Assembly (NCBI GenBank): GCA_016871015.1
Contig: VFZX01000033.1
Coordinates: 1 to 35,372 of the forward strand
From: Acidobacteriota bacterium
Lineage (GTDB): Bacteria > Acidobacteriota > Terriglobia > Bryobacterales > Bryobacteraceae
DNA length: 35,372 bases
Reading direction: 5' to 3'
Shown: piece by piece, positions 2,642 through 10,823 of the stretch
How the letters are laid out: every line of letters begins with the position of its first letter
How positions within the stretch are numbered: the stretch's first letter is position 1
Translations under genes and position numbers: made by a program
Notes under the pieces: generated by a model
Told to the model about the DNA's origin: nothing
Seen by the model: only the letters and a program-made list of their open reading frames with translations
The model's database searches: none

Positions 2642-5600
2642 CTACCAGTTTAGGCGCAGCGCGAACTGGAGAATGCGCGGGTCGTACGCGGTCCGCGTCA
2701 CCATGAACGTCCGCGAGGACTGGTTGCCATCCGGGCCCGTCAGGTTCACGCGATTGAAGGCGTTGAACACCTCGAAGCGGAACTGGGCATAGACGCGCTC
2801 GGCATGGATCGGGAAGTTCTTGTGGAGGCCGAGGTCGGTGCTGGCGATGCCGGGTCCGCTGAACATGTTGCGCCCCTGGTTGCCGAACGTGCCGAGGGCA
2901 TTCGGCAGGAAGGCGGAAACGTTCAGCCACTGGGCGATGCGGTCCCCGCGGCTGCGGCCGCTGGCCAGGATCGGATTCCCCACCAGGTCGGCGCGCTGTC
3001 CGCTGGTGCCGGTGCGGGCGTTGTCGACGCCGCTGCCGACCGTGAACGGATATCCGCTTTGGAGGGTGAGAATTCCGGACAGGTTCCAGCCGCCGAGGAC
3101 GAACTTGGCGGCGGTGCTGTCGAACTTGCCGGGAACCCGCCAGAGGCTCGATGCGGTGAAGACGTGGCGGTGATCGAAGTCCGCGAGGCCTTTGTCGAAC
3201 GACTGGTTGAACGGATTGATGCGGCCCGGTCCGGCTTTGTTCGCCGAGCCGTCGTCAATCGCCTTCGACAATTGATAATTGGCAAGCAGCGAGAAGCCTG
3301 TTGAGAAGCGCTTTTCGACTGTTGTCTGCCAGGAGTGGAACGTCGAATTCGCGGTCGGCTCAAGCAGCGTGATGTTGGCGTAGAGCGGCGCCAGGGGGCG
3401 CCGCTGGTTCGTCGTGGCGGTGGTCGCGCCCGGAGCATAGATGGCCGGGTTCAGCTCGCGCTGAGCCAGCAGCCGGGTCCCCTTGGATCCGGCATAAGCC
3501 GTGCAGACGACGAATCCGCCCGTTACTTCGCGCTCAATCGTCAGGTTCCACGACTGCTGATACGGGTTGCGCATATGCTCCTCATACACGGTGGCAACGT
3601 GCGGACGCACGAATGCCACTTCGCGCGGCGGATTGGTGGGCGCCGGGAATGGATTCGTGGCCCCTGCGTAGGGGTCGGCGAAACTGTTCACGTTGTTGCC
3701 ATTCACGCTGACCACGGTTCCGAACGGACCCTGGTTGGCCTGGCCGTTGGTGACGAGGGTGTTTTGGCGGTCGAAGAAGATTCCGTAGCCTCCGCGCAAC
3801 GCCGTCTTGCCGTCGCCGAACACGTCGTAAGCGAAGCCGAGGCGTGGACCCAGGTTGCTCCAGCGGGTGGGATAGCCGCCGTCCGGGAATCCGGGGTCGC
3901 CGGGGTAGAGCACGCCGGGAGGCGCATTGATGTAGCGCGAGGACTGCGCGCCCGCCCGCCAGCCGGCGAGTTTGCCGTCGACATCGGTGTAGGGGAAGAA
4001 GGGCTCCCAGCGGACGCCCAAGTCGAACGTCAACCGGCGCGTGACCTTCATCGAGTCGTTGAAAAAGAACGACACGATGTTGAAGCGCGTCTTCTTGTAT
4101 TCACCGATTCCCTGGCTGAGCGAAGCGAACTTGCCGACGAAAAAGTCGGCCAGGGCGTCGCTGGTGAACGGCGCCACGCCGTTCCATGCGAACTGGCCGT
4201 TGGCGCGGAAGTTGTTCACGATGTCGCCGATGCCGCGCCCGTATTCGCCACCGAAGCTCATGTTGTGCCTGCCGCGGGTCCAGCGGGCGGTGTCGCTCAC
4301 CTGGTATTCGTCGCGGAAGAAGTTGTTCGTGTCGCCGGTGTTGATCTGGAAGTATCCGTTCACTGTCAAGTGGTACTGGGGCCGGTCGTCATTGAACATC
4401 TTGACGCCCAACTGGGCCAGGCTCTTCTCCGGGAAAATCCGGACCACCGGGCCGTCGGTGTGGTTGTAGCTGAACAGCACGGTGTTGAGCACCCTGGGCG
4501 ACACCGTGTGTGTGTCGGTGACCGTGGTCGAGTGGTTGAACCACCGGCGTCCGCCCACCGAGTTCAGGTAGTTCTTCGGATCGAGGAAGGCCGGCGTCGA
4601 GGCCCAGGACTTCCAGAAGCGTCCGCTCAGCCGGTGGCGCGAGTTGAGCTGGTGATCGCCGCGGATCAGCGTCTGGTCGTCGTTGAGACGGTTGGGAACC
4701 TGAAAGCTCACCGTGGTTCCGCTCTGCGGCAGCGGCAGGTGGTTGTCCGCAATGGAGCGCGAAATCGGGCTGTACTGCGACAGCGGAATCTGGTTGCCGG
4801 GATACGGGGCGTTGGCGAATGGATCGCGTAGCGGACGGGTGAGCGCGGAGAAGTCGCCCCGCTTCTGGGCGGCGGTGGGAACCACCACCGCGGCGTCGGC
4901 CGGAGCCTGGCGGACGCGGGTCCCCTGATAGGAGAAGAAGAAGAAGCTTTTGTCCCGGCCGTTGTAGAGCTTGGGGATCCACACGGGTCCGCCGGTGGTG
5001 AGTCCGAACTGGTTGCGCTTCAGTCCGTCGTCGACCCGGCGGCCGTTGGTGATCGGGTTGAAGAAGTTGGCCGCGTTCACCGCTTTGTTGCGCAAGTATT
5101 CGAACGCCACGCCGTGCAGGTCATTGGTGCCCGACCGGGTGATTGCGTTGACGATACCGCCGGAGTTGCGTCCGAACTCGGCGCTGAAGTTGTTGGTCTG
5201 GACACTGAACTCCTGGAGCGCGTCCGGGTTCGGCATGGGATTGGCCGCGTTGGAATAGTGGTCGTTGTTGTTGGCGCCGTCCAGAATGTAGTTGGTCGAG
5301 TTGCCGCGGCTGCCGTTGACGCTGACTCCCTGTGCTCCGGGATAGGTGGTGCCGGAGGTGACGTCGGCGCGTGTGTCAAGCTGGACGCCAGCCACGAGCC
5401 GCATCAGTTGGGTTGGATTGCGGCCGTTCAACGGCAGGTCCTCGATGCGCTTCTTGTCGACCACGGTCTTGAGCGTCGCGGTGGTGGTGTCGACGGTGAC
5501 CACGTCGGCGGTGACGCTGACGGTTTCCGCGGTCTCGCCGATCGCCAGATTGACGTTCACGCGGGCGATCTCATTCACTTGCAGGCGCACGCCGCGTGTC

Positions 5601-5848
5601 TCGAACTTCTTGAATCCGCTGACCGTGGCGGCGAGATCATAGGTTCCTGCCGGAAGCGCGCGGAACCAGTAGACTCCATTTTCATCCGACGCCGTCGTGA
5701 ACCGGGCGTTGGTGGCGGAGTTGGTTGCGGTGACGGTGGAGTTGGGAACCACAGCCCCGGCGGGATCGGCTACCGTTCCGGTGATGGATCCGGTGACGTC
5801 GGCCCACACCAAGGACGTGAGTGCCCCGAGGCACAGGAGAAGACGCAT
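2642..5848 (-). CDS. Oar-like TonB-dependent outer-membrane receptor with carboxypeptidase-regulatory-like domain
   Basis: A complete 1068-residue receptor. It has a signal peptide (MRLLLCLGALTSLVWA), then a carboxypeptidase-regulatory-like beta-sandwich (about 17-100; GTVADPAGAVVPNSTVTATN...AGTYDLAATVSGFKKFE). A plug domain follows (about 105-250; LPLNGRNPTQLM, NYILDGANNND, EFSVQTNNFSAEFGRNSGGIVNAITRSGTN). The rest is a large beta-barrel with repeated DLGVRWE, PRLGFAYD and RGGYGIFFD strands and a C-terminal RLNW. This layout is typical of the expanded acidobacterial Oar family, thought to import glycans or other large substrates with TonB energy; no ligand can be read from sequence. The ATG at 5848 has an AAGGGGG ribosome site that overlaps the stop of the upstream FMN dehydrogenase (9-nt gap). 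That places the receptor within the operon and links uptake to the periplasmic redox pair. Confidence 0.93.
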   Translation of the reverse strand: MRLLLCLGALTSLVWADVTGSITGTVADPAGAVVPNSTVTATNSATNARFTTASDENGVYWFRALPAGTYDLAATVSGFKKFETRGVRLQVNEIARVNVNLAIGETAETVSVTADVVTVDTTTATLKTVVDKKRIEDLPLNGRNPTQLMRLVAGVQLDTRADVTSGTTYPGAQGVSVNGSRGNSTNYILDGANNNDHYSNAANPMPNPDALQEFSVQTNNFSAEFGRNSGGIVNAITRSGTNDLHGVAFEYLRNKAVNAANFFNPITNGRRVDDGLKRNQFGLTTGGPVWIPKLYNGRDKSFFFFSYQGTRVRQAPADAAVVVPTAAQKRGDFSALTRPLRDPFANAPYPGNQIPLSQYSPISRSIADNHLPLPQSGTTVSFQVPNRLNDDQTLIRGDHQLNSRHRLSGRFWKSWASTPAFLDPKNYLNSVGGRRWFNHSTTVTDTHTVSPRVLNTVLFSYNHTDGPVVRIFPEKSLAQLGVKMFNDDRPQYHLTVNGYFQINTGDTNNFFRDEYQVSDTARWTRGRHNMSFGGEYGRGIGDIVNNFRANGQFAWNGVAPFTSDALADFFVGKFASLSQGIGEYKKTRFNIVSFFFNDSMKVTRRLTFDLGVRWEPFFPYTDVDGKLAGWRAGAQSSRYINAPPGVLYPGDPGFPDGGYPTRWSNLGPRLGFAYDVFGDGKTALRGGYGIFFDRQNTLVTNGQANQGPFGTVVSVNGNNVNSFADPYAGATNPFPAPTNPPREVAFVRPHVATVYEEHMRNPYQQSWNLTIEREVTGGFVVCTAYAGSKGTRLLAQRELNPAIYAPGATTATTNQRRPLAPLYANITLLEPTANSTFHSWQTTVEKRFSTGFSLLANYQLSKAIDDGSANKAGPGRINPFNQSFDKGLADFDHRHVFTASSLWRVPGKFDSTAAKFVLGGWNLSGILTLQSGYPFTVGSGVDNARTGTSGQRADLVGNPILASGRSRGDRIAQWLNVSAFLPNALGTFGNQGRNMFSGPGIASTDLGLHKNFPIHAERVYAQFRFEVFNAFNRVNLTGPDGNQSSRTFMVTRTAYDPRILQFALRLNW

Positions 5849-5857
5849 AGAACCCCC

Positions 5858-7057
5858 TTACTGGTACTTCAACAGGCTATGGTCAATGCTAGCGAGATTC
5901 GAGCGTCCGCTCAAGCCCATGGCCAGCGCAAGCTCGCTCTGGAGCAGCTCAAGCACGCGGACCACACCCTGCTCGCCGTAGGCTCCCAAGCCCCAGAGCG
6001 GCGGACGGCCGACGCAAACGGCCTTGGCGCCGATCGCCAGCGCCTTGAGGATATCGGTGCCGCGGCGGAATCCGCTGTCGACGAGAACGGGGATCCGGCC
6101 GTTCACAGCTTTGACGACTTCCGGCAGCATCTCGATGGTCGCCGCGGCGTAGTCGAGATAACGCCCGCCGTGGTTTGACACAACCACTCCGTCGGCGCCA
6201 TGCTTGACCGCCAGCGCGGCATCCTCGCCGGTCATGATGCCTTTGATGATCACCGGAACTTTGGCGTACTTCTTCAAGTCGGCGAAAAACCGCCAGTCAA
6301 GCCGGTGCATCAATGTGGTCGACAGCCGGTACGGCGGAGGCTTTTGCGGCTCCTCGCCTTCCCGCTGCCGCCGCCGGGCCGACTGCGGCGAATTGACGCC
6401 GGGCGGCGTTTGGGTGCGCAACCGGTTGCGGAGCAGCCGTTCCCGATGCGAGTTCCAGCCGGCGTCGACCGTGAGGCAAATGAGCTTGAACCCGGCGCCG
6501 ACGGCGCGTTCGACGCGTTCACGAGTACCTTCGAGGTCGGGTCCAGGGTAGAGCTGGAACCACTTGGGGAACGTGCTGGCCTGGGCGACCTTCTCGTAAG
6601 GCTGGGTCGAGTTGGTGCTCAGAATCAGGATCGTCTTGACGTGCGCGGCCGCCTTGGCAGTGGCCACTTCGCCTTCCGGATTGGCCAGACCATGACCCGC
6701 GGTCGGTGCGATCAGGATCGGCATTTCGAGCTTGTCGCCGAACACGGTCGTCGAGACGTCGAGCCCGCTGGTGTCGACCATCATCCGCGGACGCAGGGCG
6801 ATCTTGTCGAACGCCTCGCGGTTATGCCGCAGGGACCACTCGGCATCAACGCCTCCCGCGATGAAATCGTAGTTCTGCTTCGGGATCCGGGCGCGGCAAA
6901 TGGGCTCGAACTCAAACACGTTCACCAACTCGTCAAGCGAGGGGACATGCGCCGCCGTGTACGGAAGGTCCAGTTGCGCCTTGGCGAGGGGCGAGGCAGC
7001 GAACAGCGCCGCGAGATTCCGCAGGGCGGACCGCCTGGAGTAGTTATCGTTGGTCAT
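5858..7057 (-). CDS. Tat-exported FMN-dependent alpha-hydroxy-acid dehydrogenase (lactate/glycolate oxidase family)
   Basis: A 399-residue FMN TIM-barrel enzyme of the glycolate oxidase / lactate dehydrogenase / flavocytochrome b2 family, which oxidises 2-hydroxy acids to 2-oxo acids. The visible active-site set is the FMN/substrate Tyr in WFQLYPG, Asp in LTVDAG, Arg in SHRERLLRN, the FMN-binding Lys in VIIKGI, and the catalytic His and substrate Arg of SNHGGRYLD (about 294-302). The start is the ATG at 7057. It gives an N-terminus with twin arginines (NYSRRSALRNLAALF) and an Ala-rich stretch ending AKAQ, a plausible Tat signal. An upstream extension would run through the cytochrome gene. The start overlaps the end of that cytochrome gene by 14 nt, so the two are translationally coupled. 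A periplasmic dehydrogenase passing electrons to the heme protein is the simplest reading. The exact substrate is unknown. Confidence 0.9.
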   Translation of the reverse strand: MTNDNYSRRSALRNLAALFAASPLAKAQLDLPYTAAHVPSLDELVNVFEFEPICRARIPKQNYDFIAGGVDAEWSLRHNREAFDKIALRPRMMVDTSGLDVSTTVFGDKLEMPILIAPTAGHGLANPEGEVATAKAAAHVKTILILSTNSTQPYEKVAQASTFPKWFQLYPGPDLEGTRERVERAVGAGFKLICLTVDAGWNSHRERLLRNRLRTQTPPGVNSPQSARRRQREGEEPQKPPPYRLSTTLMHRLDWRFFADLKKYAKVPVIIKGIMTGEDAALAVKHGADGVVVSNHGGRYLDYAAATIEMLPEVVKAVNGRIPVLVDSGFRRGTDILKALAIGAKAVCVGRPPLWGLGAYGEQGVVRVLELLQSELALAMGLSGRSNLASIDHSLLKYQ

Positions 7058-7547
7058 GGCAAAGCAGGCATTCGTTGGATGCGCCTTTGGCGCGGTGGCA
7101 GTCCATGCATCCCGCCATCGAGATGTCCTTTTCCCGGCGCAGAACGTCGTACGTGGCCACCTCTCCGTGGCAGGTGGCGCACTTGACTCCTTCAACGCCG
7201 AGGTGCTTCTTGTGGCTGAACGAGACCCAGTCCGGAACCCGGTAGACAGGCGCCCACGGAATCTTCTTGGCCTCGGCATGGAATCCGGCCAGCTTCTGGA
7301 TGTGCGGGCTGTCCTTCTTGACGGCCTGATGGCAGCCCATGCAGACCTGTGTTTTTGGAATCGTGGCGAAGTCGCCAGGATCGGGGACCGGGTGGCAATG
7401 CGCGCAGGCGGTCTTATTGATCCCGGCGTGTGTCTTGTGGCTAAACGGCAACGGCTGCTCGGGAGCGGGCCGGGGAATCTTGACGTCAGGCAGTTGTGCG
7501 AAGAGGATAGCCGACACGGAGATCGCGGCGGCGGCGAACCACCTCAT
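7044..7547 (-). CDS. Pentaheme c-type cytochrome (cytochrome c3/c7-like)
   Basis: A 167-residue exported protein with a signal peptide (residues 1-18, WFAAAAISVSAILFAQ) and five CXXCH heme-attachment motifs: CAHCH (48-52), CMGCH (69-73), CATCH (123-127), CMDCH (147-151) and CLLCH (160-164). Extra His residues such as those in PFSHKTH and SFSHKKH are spaced like the distal ligands of c3/c7 multiheme cytochromes. It should be a periplasmic electron carrier. Its 3' end overlaps the start of the FMN dehydrogenase by 14 nt, which points to an electron-transfer partnership. The ATG at 7547 lies 20 nt past the acyl-CoA mutase stop. No quinone-oxidase or membrane-anchor gene is adjacent, so the final acceptor is not visible. 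Confidence 0.9.
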   Translation of the reverse strand: MRWFAAAAISVSAILFAQLPDVKIPRPAPEQPLPFSHKTHAGINKTACAHCHPVPDPGDFATIPKTQVCMGCHQAVKKDSPHIQKLAGFHAEAKKIPWAPVYRVPDWVSFSHKKHLGVEGVKCATCHGEVATYDVLRREKDISMAGCMDCHRAKGASNECLLCHDQR

Positions 7548-7567: not shown

Positions 7568-9067
7568 TCACAGGACGGCCCGCTCGGTCCACAGTCCGAA
7601 GACGTCGCCCATGGCGGCGCAAATCTCACCAGTGGTCGCGTATGCCCGGACGGCGTCCAGGATGTAGGGCATCGTGTTGGCATCGCCTTCGCAACAGCGG
7701 CGAAGTGCGCCGAGCGTGCGGTCCACCGCGGCCTGGCTGCGGGACTGCTTCAGCTCTGCCAGCTTGCGCCGCTGGGCATCCGCGGCTTCCTCGCCGATTT
7801 GCAACAGCTCGATCGGCTTTTCCGATTCCACCTGGTAGGCCGTGACGCCAACCACGGTGCGTTCTCCCCCCTCGATTTCCCGCTGGTACTGGTAGCTCGC
7901 GTTGGCGATCTCCTGCTGCGGGAAACCGCGTTCGATAGCCGGAATCATCCCGCCCATTCCGTCGATTTGGCGAATGTAGTCCTGCGCCGCCTCCTCGACT
8001 TCGTTGGTCAGGTTTTCAAGGTAGTAGCTGCCGCCAAACGGGTCCGGTACCGCGGGAATCCCGCTCTCATACGCGATGATCTGCTGGGTGCGCAACGCGA
8101 TCGTTACGGCGTGGTCGTTCGGCAGGGCGAACGCCTCGTCGAGGGAGTTGGTGTGCAAGGACTGGCATCCGCCGAGGACCGCGGCCATCGCCTGCAGTGT
8201 TGTCCGCATCACGTTGTTGTAGGGCTGCTGCCAGGTGAGCGAGCAGCCGGCGGTCTGGGCGTGGAACCTGAGTTTCCAGCTTCGCTCGTCCCGTGCGCCG
8301 AAGCGGTCGCGCATGATGTAGGCCCACATGCGCCGCGCGGCACGGTACTTGGCGATCTCTTCGAAGAAGTGATTATGCGCGTTGAAAAAGAAGCTGAGAC
8401 GGCCGGCGAAGGTGTCGACGGGGAGCCCGCGGGCGAGGACCCAGTCCACGTATTCGATGCCGTCGCGCAGGGTGAACGCCAGCTCCTGCACGGCCGTCGA
8501 CCCGGCTTCGCGGATATGGTATCCGCTGATGGAAACTGGATTGAATTTCGGGACCTGCCCGGTCGAGAACACGATCGAGTCCGTCACCAGCCGCATGGAC
8601 GGCCGCGGCGGGTAGAGAAACTCCTTCTGCGCGATGTATTCCTTGAGCGCGTCGTTCTGGAGTGTCCCGTTGAGCTGCGTCCATGAGGCTCCCTGCTTTT
8701 CCGCGACGGCCAGGTACATCGCGTAGAGGATCGAGGCGGGCGAGTTGATGGTCATCGACACGCTCACCTGAGACAGCGGGATGCTGTCGAACAGCGTCTC
8801 CATATCGGCGAGTGAGGAAACAGGCACGCCGCATTTGCCGACTTCGCCGAGCGAGCGGGGATCGTCGGAATCCTGGCCCATGAGCGTGGGCAGGTCGAAG
8901 GCGACCGACAGTCCGGTCTGGCCCTGTCCGAGCAGGTAGCGGTATCGCTGATTGGTTTCCTCGGGGGTCGAGAATCCCGCGAACTGGCGCATGGTCCAGA
9001 GCTTGCCGCGGTACATCGTGGCGTGGATGCCGCGCGTGTACGGAAATTCGCCGGGGACTGCCTTCAC
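7568..9067 (-). CDS. B12-dependent acyl-CoA mutase large subunit, isobutyryl-CoA-mutase-like
   Basis: A 499-residue catalytic subunit of the methylmalonyl-CoA mutase family: the TIM barrel without the C-terminal B12-binding domain, so it needs a separate small subunit that is not in this window. Family motifs are clear: [59 protein letters not shown]. Against the well-studied propionibacterial MCM the numbering offset is a constant 60. His184 matches His244, but the two carboxylate-recognising residues are changed: Phe29 replaces Tyr89 and Gln147 replaces Arg207. Phe/Gln is the known signature of isobutyryl-CoA mutase. The start is a GTG at 9067, 4 nt after the preceding gene, with an in-frame stop just upstream. 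The usual N-terminal arm is therefore absent. Annotation pipelines will probably call it methylmalonyl-CoA mutase; I favour an ICM-like branched/linear acyl-CoA interconversion. Confidence 0.85.
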
Positions 9068-10211: not shown

Positions 10212-10823
10212 GTGAGCGAAGGAAAGATCTATCATGCCCCCCACGTTGCGTTGAACCGGATCTACACCCGGAGGGGGGATGGAGGCCAGACGAGCCTCGT
10301 GGGCGGGCAGCGGGTGGGGAAAGACGCGTTGCGTATCGAATGCTACGGAACGGTGGATGAGCTCAACTCCTTCGTCGGGATGGCCCGCTTCACCGCGGCC
10401 GCGGACTCGCGCCTGGACTGGCTGGAGGCGATTCTGTTGCGGGTCCAGCATGAGCTGTTCAATCTGGGATCGATCCTGGCGACGCTGCCGGAGGACGTGC
10501 ACCCGAAGCAGCCGCGGGTGACGCAATCCGAGATCGATCGGCTGGAGCGGGAGATCGATCTCGCCAACGAGCCCCTGTCCGGATTGCGGTCGTTCGTGTT
10601 GCCGGGCGGCTCACGGATCAATACCGAGCTGCACGCGGCGCGCACGGTCTGCCGGCGGGCGGAGCGGATCGCGGTCGCTTTGGCGAAGGAGGAGCCGGTG
10701 CCAGCGGAGACGATCGGGTATCTCAACCGGCTGAGCGACGCCTTGTTTGTTTGGAGCCGTTGGGCGAACTTCGCCAGCGGCGCACCGGAGGTCCTATGGG
10801 ACCCCAATCACGGGGCCGGTTGA
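10212..10823 (+). CDS. PduO-type cob(I)alamin adenosyltransferase
   Basis: A 203-residue cytoplasmic enzyme that adenosylates cob(I)alamin with ATP to make coenzyme B12. The N-terminal ATP-binding signature is intact: IYTRRGDGGQTSLVGG followed by VDELNSFVG. The helical-bundle motifs also match the PduO/MMAB family: ILLRVQHELFNLGS, FVLPGGSRINTELHAARTVCRRAER, YLNRLSDALFVWSRWAN. The start is a GTG at 10212; no in-frame ATG comes earlier and the ribosome site is weak. It is divergently arranged, 24 nt from the operon containing the B12-dependent mutase, and is the natural supplier of that enzyme's cofactor. In known organisms PduO-type enzymes also act as chaperones for mutase loading. Confidence 0.93.
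   Translation: MSEGKIYHAPHVALNRIYTRRGDGGQTSLVGGQRVGKDALRIECYGTVDELNSFVGMARFTAAADSRLDWLEAILLRVQHELFNLGSILATLPEDVHPKQPRVTQSEIDRLEREIDLANEPLSGLRSFVLPGGSRINTELHAARTVCRRAERIAVALAKEEPVPAETIGYLNRLSDALFVWSRWANFASGAPEVLWDPNHGAG

Follow-up and report, generated by a model that had tools for sequence, protein, structure and literature searches.

A pentaheme c-type cytochrome gene paired with a Tat-type FMN-dependent 2-hydroxy-acid dehydrogenase gene in Acidobacteriota: a candidate periplasmic redox module

The acceptors named for the FMN-dependent 2-hydroxy-acid dehydrogenase family (FMN_dh) in the available part of PMC8491902 are O2, cytochrome c (in flavocytochrome b2) and quinone. On the cytochrome side, the pentaheme subunit ActA of alternative complex III is described, in the portion of PMC5928083 at hand, as carrying four bis-His hemes and one His/Met heme, with heme potentials from -45 to +230 mV. 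A search of the open-licence literature, covering titles and the openings of abstracts, returned no description of a bacterial enzyme of this family to which a c-type cytochrome is linked or in which one is built in; no FMN_dh/c-type cytochrome pair occurs in the sections of PMC12442390 that were consulted, and the main text of an Acidobacteria genome survey (PMC5900883) contains no lactate dehydrogenase, multiheme, PQQ, glycolate or alternative complex III. Here we describe such a pair in a window of 35,372 nucleotides (the whole stretch of DNA that was analysed) from a genome of the family Bryobacteraceae. The two genes probably form a periplasmic respiratory module, a 2-hydroxy-acid:cytochrome oxidoreductase whose location, substrate and electron transfer we infer from the sequences and their genomic context.

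Anatomy of the gene pair

The cytochrome gene comes first and the FMN_dh gene second, both on the minus strand (Table 1). The 14-nt overlap between them and the five CXXCH motifs of the cytochrome, both noticed in a preliminary description of this DNA, were confirmed, the motifs lying at residues 48, 69, 123, 147 and 160. The start codon of the enzyme overlaps the His codon of the fifth heme motif (CAT-G). Of the 14 pair loci compared, 8 have an ATG at exactly -14, a conservation that is partly explained by the heme motif itself supplying the ATG, and five of these eight loci also offer an alternative ATG or GTG, which makes the actual start ambiguous there; at the remaining six loci, the enzyme starts 2 to 19 nt past the cytochrome stop. 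A 473-aa ORF opening at 7279 was rejected as the true start of the enzyme, since its extra residues fall inside the cytochrome gene in another frame; conservation with orthologues sets in near the ATG given in Table 1, just ahead of an invariant RR. Consensus scans, which are weak evidence in this respect, found no promoter or terminator pattern at the pair.

Table 1. Coordinates of the features of the gene pair and of the adjoining outer-membrane protein gene
Feature	Coordinates	Strand	Remarks
ActA-like pentaheme c-type cytochrome	7044..7547	-	167 aa; Sec-type N-terminus by eye; five CXXCH; Pfam C7/CIII
FMN-dependent 2-hydroxy-acid dehydrogenase family (FMN_dh, PF01070)	5858..7057	-	399 aa; start ATG at 7057
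14-nt overlap of cytochrome and dehydrogenase genes	7044..7057	-	dehydrogenase ATG inside fifth heme motif (CAT-G)
Twin-arginine signal peptide MTNDNYSRRSALRNLAALFAASPLAKA	6977..7057	-	enzyme residues 1-27; cleavage site inferred by eye
Heme motif 1, CAHCH	7392..7406	-	
Heme motif 2, CMGCH	7329..7343	-	
Heme motif 3, CATCH	7167..7181	-	
Heme motif 4, CMDCH	7095..7109	-	
Heme motif 5, CLLCH	7056..7070	-	
Outer-membrane beta-barrel protein, carboxypeptidase-regulatory and plug domains	2642..5848	-	starts 9 nt past dehydrogenase stop

The cytochrome matches the Pfam families Cytochrome_C7 (6.8e-11) and Cytochrom_CIII (1.8e-8), and its N-terminus is hydrophobic and without RR, the Sec signal having been judged by eye alone. 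Its best matches in the PDB are to alternative complex III chains (8k9e, 1.6e-29; 6f0k, 2.5e-27; 6btm, 5.2e-25; 6lod, 2.3e-19), and it is thus a pentaheme c cytochrome homologous to ActA. The multiheme character given to it in the preliminary description stands on the five CXXCH motifs, but the simple c3/c7 label was dropped because the PDB sequence matches place ActA-type cytochromes nearer. Nine His (five in the CXXCH motifs and four elsewhere) and M144, which lies outside the motifs, are invariant in an alignment of 14 cytochromes that includes two paralogues from the source genome itself, and these candidate ligands would fit, by count only, four bis-His hemes and one His/Met heme. AlphaFold modelled the cytochrome with low confidence (pLDDT 68.1, pTM 0.37), and the single Foldseek match that this model gave under E 0.001 was again alternative complex III (6btm_A), at a low TM-score of 0.27. 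The NCBIfam model of QrcA also matches (E 2.5e-23), at 82.6 bits and below its equivalog cut-off of 180. No act operon lies beside the cytochrome gene, whose neighbours are the FMN_dh and a methylmalonyl-CoA mutase; a separate ActA-like gene of the same genome stands within an operon resembling that of alternative complex III (L061; genes named by eye).

The enzyme begins with MTNDNYSRRSALRNLAALFAASPLAKAQ, an N-terminus of the twin-arginine type in which the RR motif, a hydrophobic stretch and an AXA-like cleavage site were recognised by inspection of the sequence. This agrees with the preliminary description; R8, R9, S22, P23 and Q28 are invariant in 13 aligned enzyme sequences, and TatC is encoded in the source genome. 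The remainder is an FMN_dh barrel (residues 54-396; Pfam 2.9e-119, 398.7 bits against a gathering score of 24.9) with spinach glycolate oxidase (1gyl/1gox) among its best PDB matches, and only FMN_dh and related barrel profiles of Pfam match it, with no match to a cytochrome b5 domain. Applying to the active site the residue numbering and roles that we take to be those of spinach glycolate oxidase, the equivalence itself being given by alignment, we found the counterparts of Y24, S106, Q127, Y129, T155, D157, R164, K230, H254, R257, D285 and R309 in all 14 pair enzymes, so that the full set of FMN active-site residues claimed earlier is indeed present. Because these canonical residues are kept throughout, L-2-hydroxy-acid oxidation is the likely chemistry of the enzyme. 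The position of Trp108, a residue said to be unique to glycolate oxidases in the part of PMC10153336 that was available, is occupied by Asn in 13 of the 14 pair enzymes and by Val in the other; the Trp that marks glycolate oxidases is therefore absent, which makes glycolate less likely as substrate. The Leu161 position is likewise variable (Asn in 10, Gly in three, Ser in one), and the substrate may, as a weak guess, be a 2-hydroxy acid of polar character, possibly a sugar acid.

Conservation and surroundings of the pair

The preliminary description had left it to a search of other genomes whether the adjacent pair is peculiar to its source; it is not, and the pair recurs amid different flanking genes. 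A sample of 150 genomes of the bacterial family contained 24 with a match to the enzyme at E 1e-100, corresponding to 32 listed places. Among the best-scoring 30 of these, which were fetched, a pentaheme ORF lies directly upstream of the enzyme in 14; all 14 enzymes are at least 60% identical to that of the window, and L027 (62%) is the sole fetched place at that level without the cytochrome. A contig scan for relatives of the enzyme, which overlaps with the family sample and contains several records from the same assemblies, gave 69 loci, and here the pentaheme ORF is found directly upstream of 16 of the 21 enzymes that reach 59% identity. The other five (L108, L110, L112, L113 and L159) have no adjacent cytochrome and an N-terminus that is still Tat-like, and none of the nine enzymes at 45-55% identity has one, although their N-termini look Tat-like. 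The linkage of enzyme and cytochrome is therefore not absolute. Further away, no multiheme ORF was found near any of 39 distant enzymes from Chloroflexota, Gemmatimonadota, Verrucomicrobiota and Proteobacteria, which, judged by eye, start with the barrel and are without a typical Tat signal; a few of them (e.g. L128, L129, L147, L149, L155 and L160) show RR in frame upstream, with the hydrophobic stretch absent. When 299 genomes of the class were searched with a profile, 5 of the 30 loci fetched had the pair; four of these had already been seen, and the new one (L260) belongs to a different family of the order. Finally, when the protein was searched for in 396 genomes from across the phylum, with four candidates scored per genome, only the source genome gave a match at E 1e-110.

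The genes around the pair vary from locus to locus; among them are an acyl-CoA dehydrogenase, an alpha/beta hydrolase and a HGSNAT-type acyltransferase with a GlcNAc 2-epimerase. When the called neighbours at the 14 pair loci were compared all against all, no gene was shared more widely than the cytochrome: copies were called at eight loci, each matching the seven others (the gene caller dropped the rest owing to the overlaps), and any other neighbour is common to no more than three other loci, as cross-checked by tblastn. The conservation of the pair is thus not general synteny. Pairing also exceeds chance, since only 3 of the 143 called neighbour genes other than the pair partners contain three or more CXXCH.

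Two sets of adjoining genes were considered as further members of the module and set aside. The outer-membrane protein gene that follows the dehydrogenase in the window has a relative directly downstream at none of the other 13 pair loci; a 33% identical protein is encoded directly upstream of the pair in L051, and related ones lie further downstream in L055 and L056, that of L056 being 71% identical and about 3.3 kb from the pair. The methylmalonyl-CoA mutase and a cobalamin adenosyltransferase have no relative near the pair at the 13 other loci. Within the window, these two genes (7568-9067 and 10212-10823, respectively) lie close to each other and plausibly have a functional link of their own. 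What we take to be HflC/HflK-type membrane proteins, labelled by eye, are encoded upstream of the pair at L053:8283-10144 and L057:2329-4190.

Other dehydrogenases associated with c-type heme motifs

The source genome has five clear FMN_dh genes (that of the window and those of L042, L043, L044 and L045), and the association with heme motifs extends beyond the pair. At the clade B locus of the source genome (L043:3273-4939), the stop codon of the enzyme gene overlaps the start of a 6-heme cytochrome gene, and at its clade C locus (L042:1010-2717), the end of the enzyme gene overlaps a 4-heme cytochrome gene; the FMN_dh of L045 stands without a cytochrome. In the family sample, a multiheme ORF directly follows 27 of the best 30 of 37 clade B matches (six CXXCH in 26 of them, three in one) but not the other three. 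For clade C (best 30 of 35), the first motif of a 4-heme ORF lies no more than 400 nt downstream in 12 cases and no more than 1200 nt downstream in 19. Both clades have the S106 and Y129 positions replaced, and because of these changes their chemistry may differ from that of the clade of the window.

A fourth type, clade D, has the motif inside the enzyme itself. The FMN_dh at L044:6096-7253 (C48 of the source genome) contains a CXXCH in loop 4, between the strand of the TVD motif and that of the KG motif, and the motif occurs at the same place in all 30 fetched enzymes of this type (L064-L093; best 30 of 68), none of which has an adjacent ORF with at least three CXXCH. C208, C211, H212 and M225 are invariant in 25 aligned sequences. 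In the phylum sample of 396 genomes, 22 of the 30 fetched matches (41 listed) contain the CXXCH and represent 11 families; the eight without it are seven weaker matches and L240, which scores above some that have the motif, and in L238 the Met was not seen beside the CXXCH. The combination of CXXCH and Met suggests a covalent heme c with His/Met ligation, and clade D is possibly a built-in flavocytochrome c. The rival reading of the motif is a zinc site or a disulfide; the model of the L044-type enzyme has a mean pLDDT of 84.8, with loop 4 at low confidence. Tat exports folded proteins, and heme c is usually attached to unfolded ones, which is in tension with a heme in loop 4, but a surface loop might escape it.

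In a tree of 74 enzymes, in which types B (L043), C (L042) and D (L044) are represented by one row in three, B, C and D each form one branch (100% bootstrap) and B and C are sisters (97/98), while the pairs of the window's type fall in a 17-row clade (95/86) that includes three cytochrome-less enzymes. The separation of all four types from the outgroup has weak support (87/61), so that any count of independent pairings is tentative.

The pentaheme cytochrome is not confined to FMN enzymes either. A paralogue in the source genome directly follows a PQQ dehydrogenase gene (L060:4197-6532, C422), and among 30 fetched loci with relatives of this PQQ enzyme (L284-L313), a 5-heme ORF follows within 400 nt in 23 but not in the other seven. 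The cytochrome tree is poorly resolved, with weak support in places; most of the FMN-linked and PQQ-linked cytochromes form separate groups, and a long-branched ActA row and L302 fall among the FMN-linked ones. L302 (G033) is labelled PQQ-linked in this tree, though its 5-heme cytochrome gene is near, and not directly downstream of, the PQQ dehydrogenase gene. Taken together, the ActA-like cytochrome looks like a reusable electron acceptor for dehydrogenases.

On balance, we favour the view that Acidobacteriota moved an FMN 2-hydroxy-acid dehydrogenase to the periplasm and wired it to c heme in at least four ways: an upstream pentaheme, a downstream hexaheme or a downstream tetraheme cytochrome, or a heme in loop 4. 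This general pattern and the loop-4 group outrank the single pair in interest, the loop-4 group being the boldest lead.

Proposed function and comparison with known systems

In the mechanism that we propose, the FMN enzyme would fold around its flavin in the cytoplasm, would be exported in folded form by Tat and would then oxidise an L-2-hydroxy acid, yielding the 2-keto acid. From its reduced FMN, single electrons would pass to the separately exported ActA-like pentaheme cytochrome, which would in turn deliver them to the respiratory chain. The periplasmic redox pair envisaged in the preliminary description appears supported, because the pair is conserved and because FMN_dh and PQQ enzymes have parallel arrangements with multiheme cytochromes; the best evidence that the cytochrome would accept electrons from the dehydrogenase is the reuse of the same type beside PQQ dehydrogenases. 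If this is correct, a dedicated periplasmic multiheme c cytochrome joins the acceptors of a textbook flavoenzyme family. The module also points to hydroxy-acid oxidation by these bacteria on the outer side of the cytoplasmic membrane, with no need for import. Since the pairing recurs within one bacterial family, it can be tested directly whether FMN_dh enzymes that are exported use, as a rule, a c heme. Direct-electron-transfer sensors would profit from a small flavoenzyme with a c heme of its own.

Three other readings were weighed. The one that survives best, though improbable, has the periplasmic enzyme reducing O2 or, like mandelate dehydrogenase, a membrane quinone, with the cytochrome co-expressed to serve another partner. 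Such acceptors are well known in the family (PMC8491902, part of the text) and some Tat-like relatives have no adjacent cytochrome, but no neighbour is shared as widely as the cytochrome, and multiheme cytochromes of other types follow further FMN_dh clades of this bacterial family. Slightly less probable still is that the FMN_dh modifies some other substrate, for example a peptide, like the pre-mycofactocin synthase MftD of the same family: the MftD model (TIGR03966) does match the enzyme, though at 218.5 bits it falls below the cut-off of 470.85, and the replaced residues of clades B and C point the same way, whereas the clade of the window keeps the canonical set in every pair enzyme. That the two genes are chance neighbours and the enzyme a cytoplasmic oxidase is strongly disfavoured: many characterised FMN_dh family members are soluble oxidases and relatives in Chloroflexota and Proteobacteria look cytoplasmic by eye, but the overlap or close linkage is kept in many genomes amid differing flanks and the RR motif is invariant.

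The respiratory module that we propose can be compared with six described systems. With glycolate oxidase and the other (S)-2-hydroxy-acid oxidases, the enzyme of the window shares the family and the canonical active-site residues; unlike glycolate oxidase, it has a Tat-type signal, Asn in place of Trp and a linked cytochrome gene. Flavocytochrome b2 (L-lactate:cytochrome c oxidoreductase) is built on the same FMN barrel family and also sends electrons to heme, but there through a fused cytochrome b5 domain, whereas the heme protein is here a separate pentaheme c cytochrome. ActA has five heme motifs, the nearest solved sequences and a compatible ligand inventory; it is membrane-anchored according to the available part of PMC5928083, whereas the cytochrome of the window shows by eye a short N-terminal hydrophobic stretch only and is encoded outside an act operon. 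QrcA, the cytochrome subunit of menaquinone reductase, differs in that the cytochrome of the window scores under its cut-off and has neighbours other than Qrc genes. The periplasmic modules of PQQ dehydrogenase and cytochrome c likewise have their own cytochrome gene, which in this bacterial family is of the same 5-heme type, but an FMN barrel here replaces the PQQ propeller and the gene order is reversed. Finally, the system of PMC12294151, as described in the part of that paper at hand, also couples periplasmic 2-hydroxy-acid oxidation to cytochrome c, but its enzyme is FAD- and Zn-dependent and acts on D-2-hydroxy acids.
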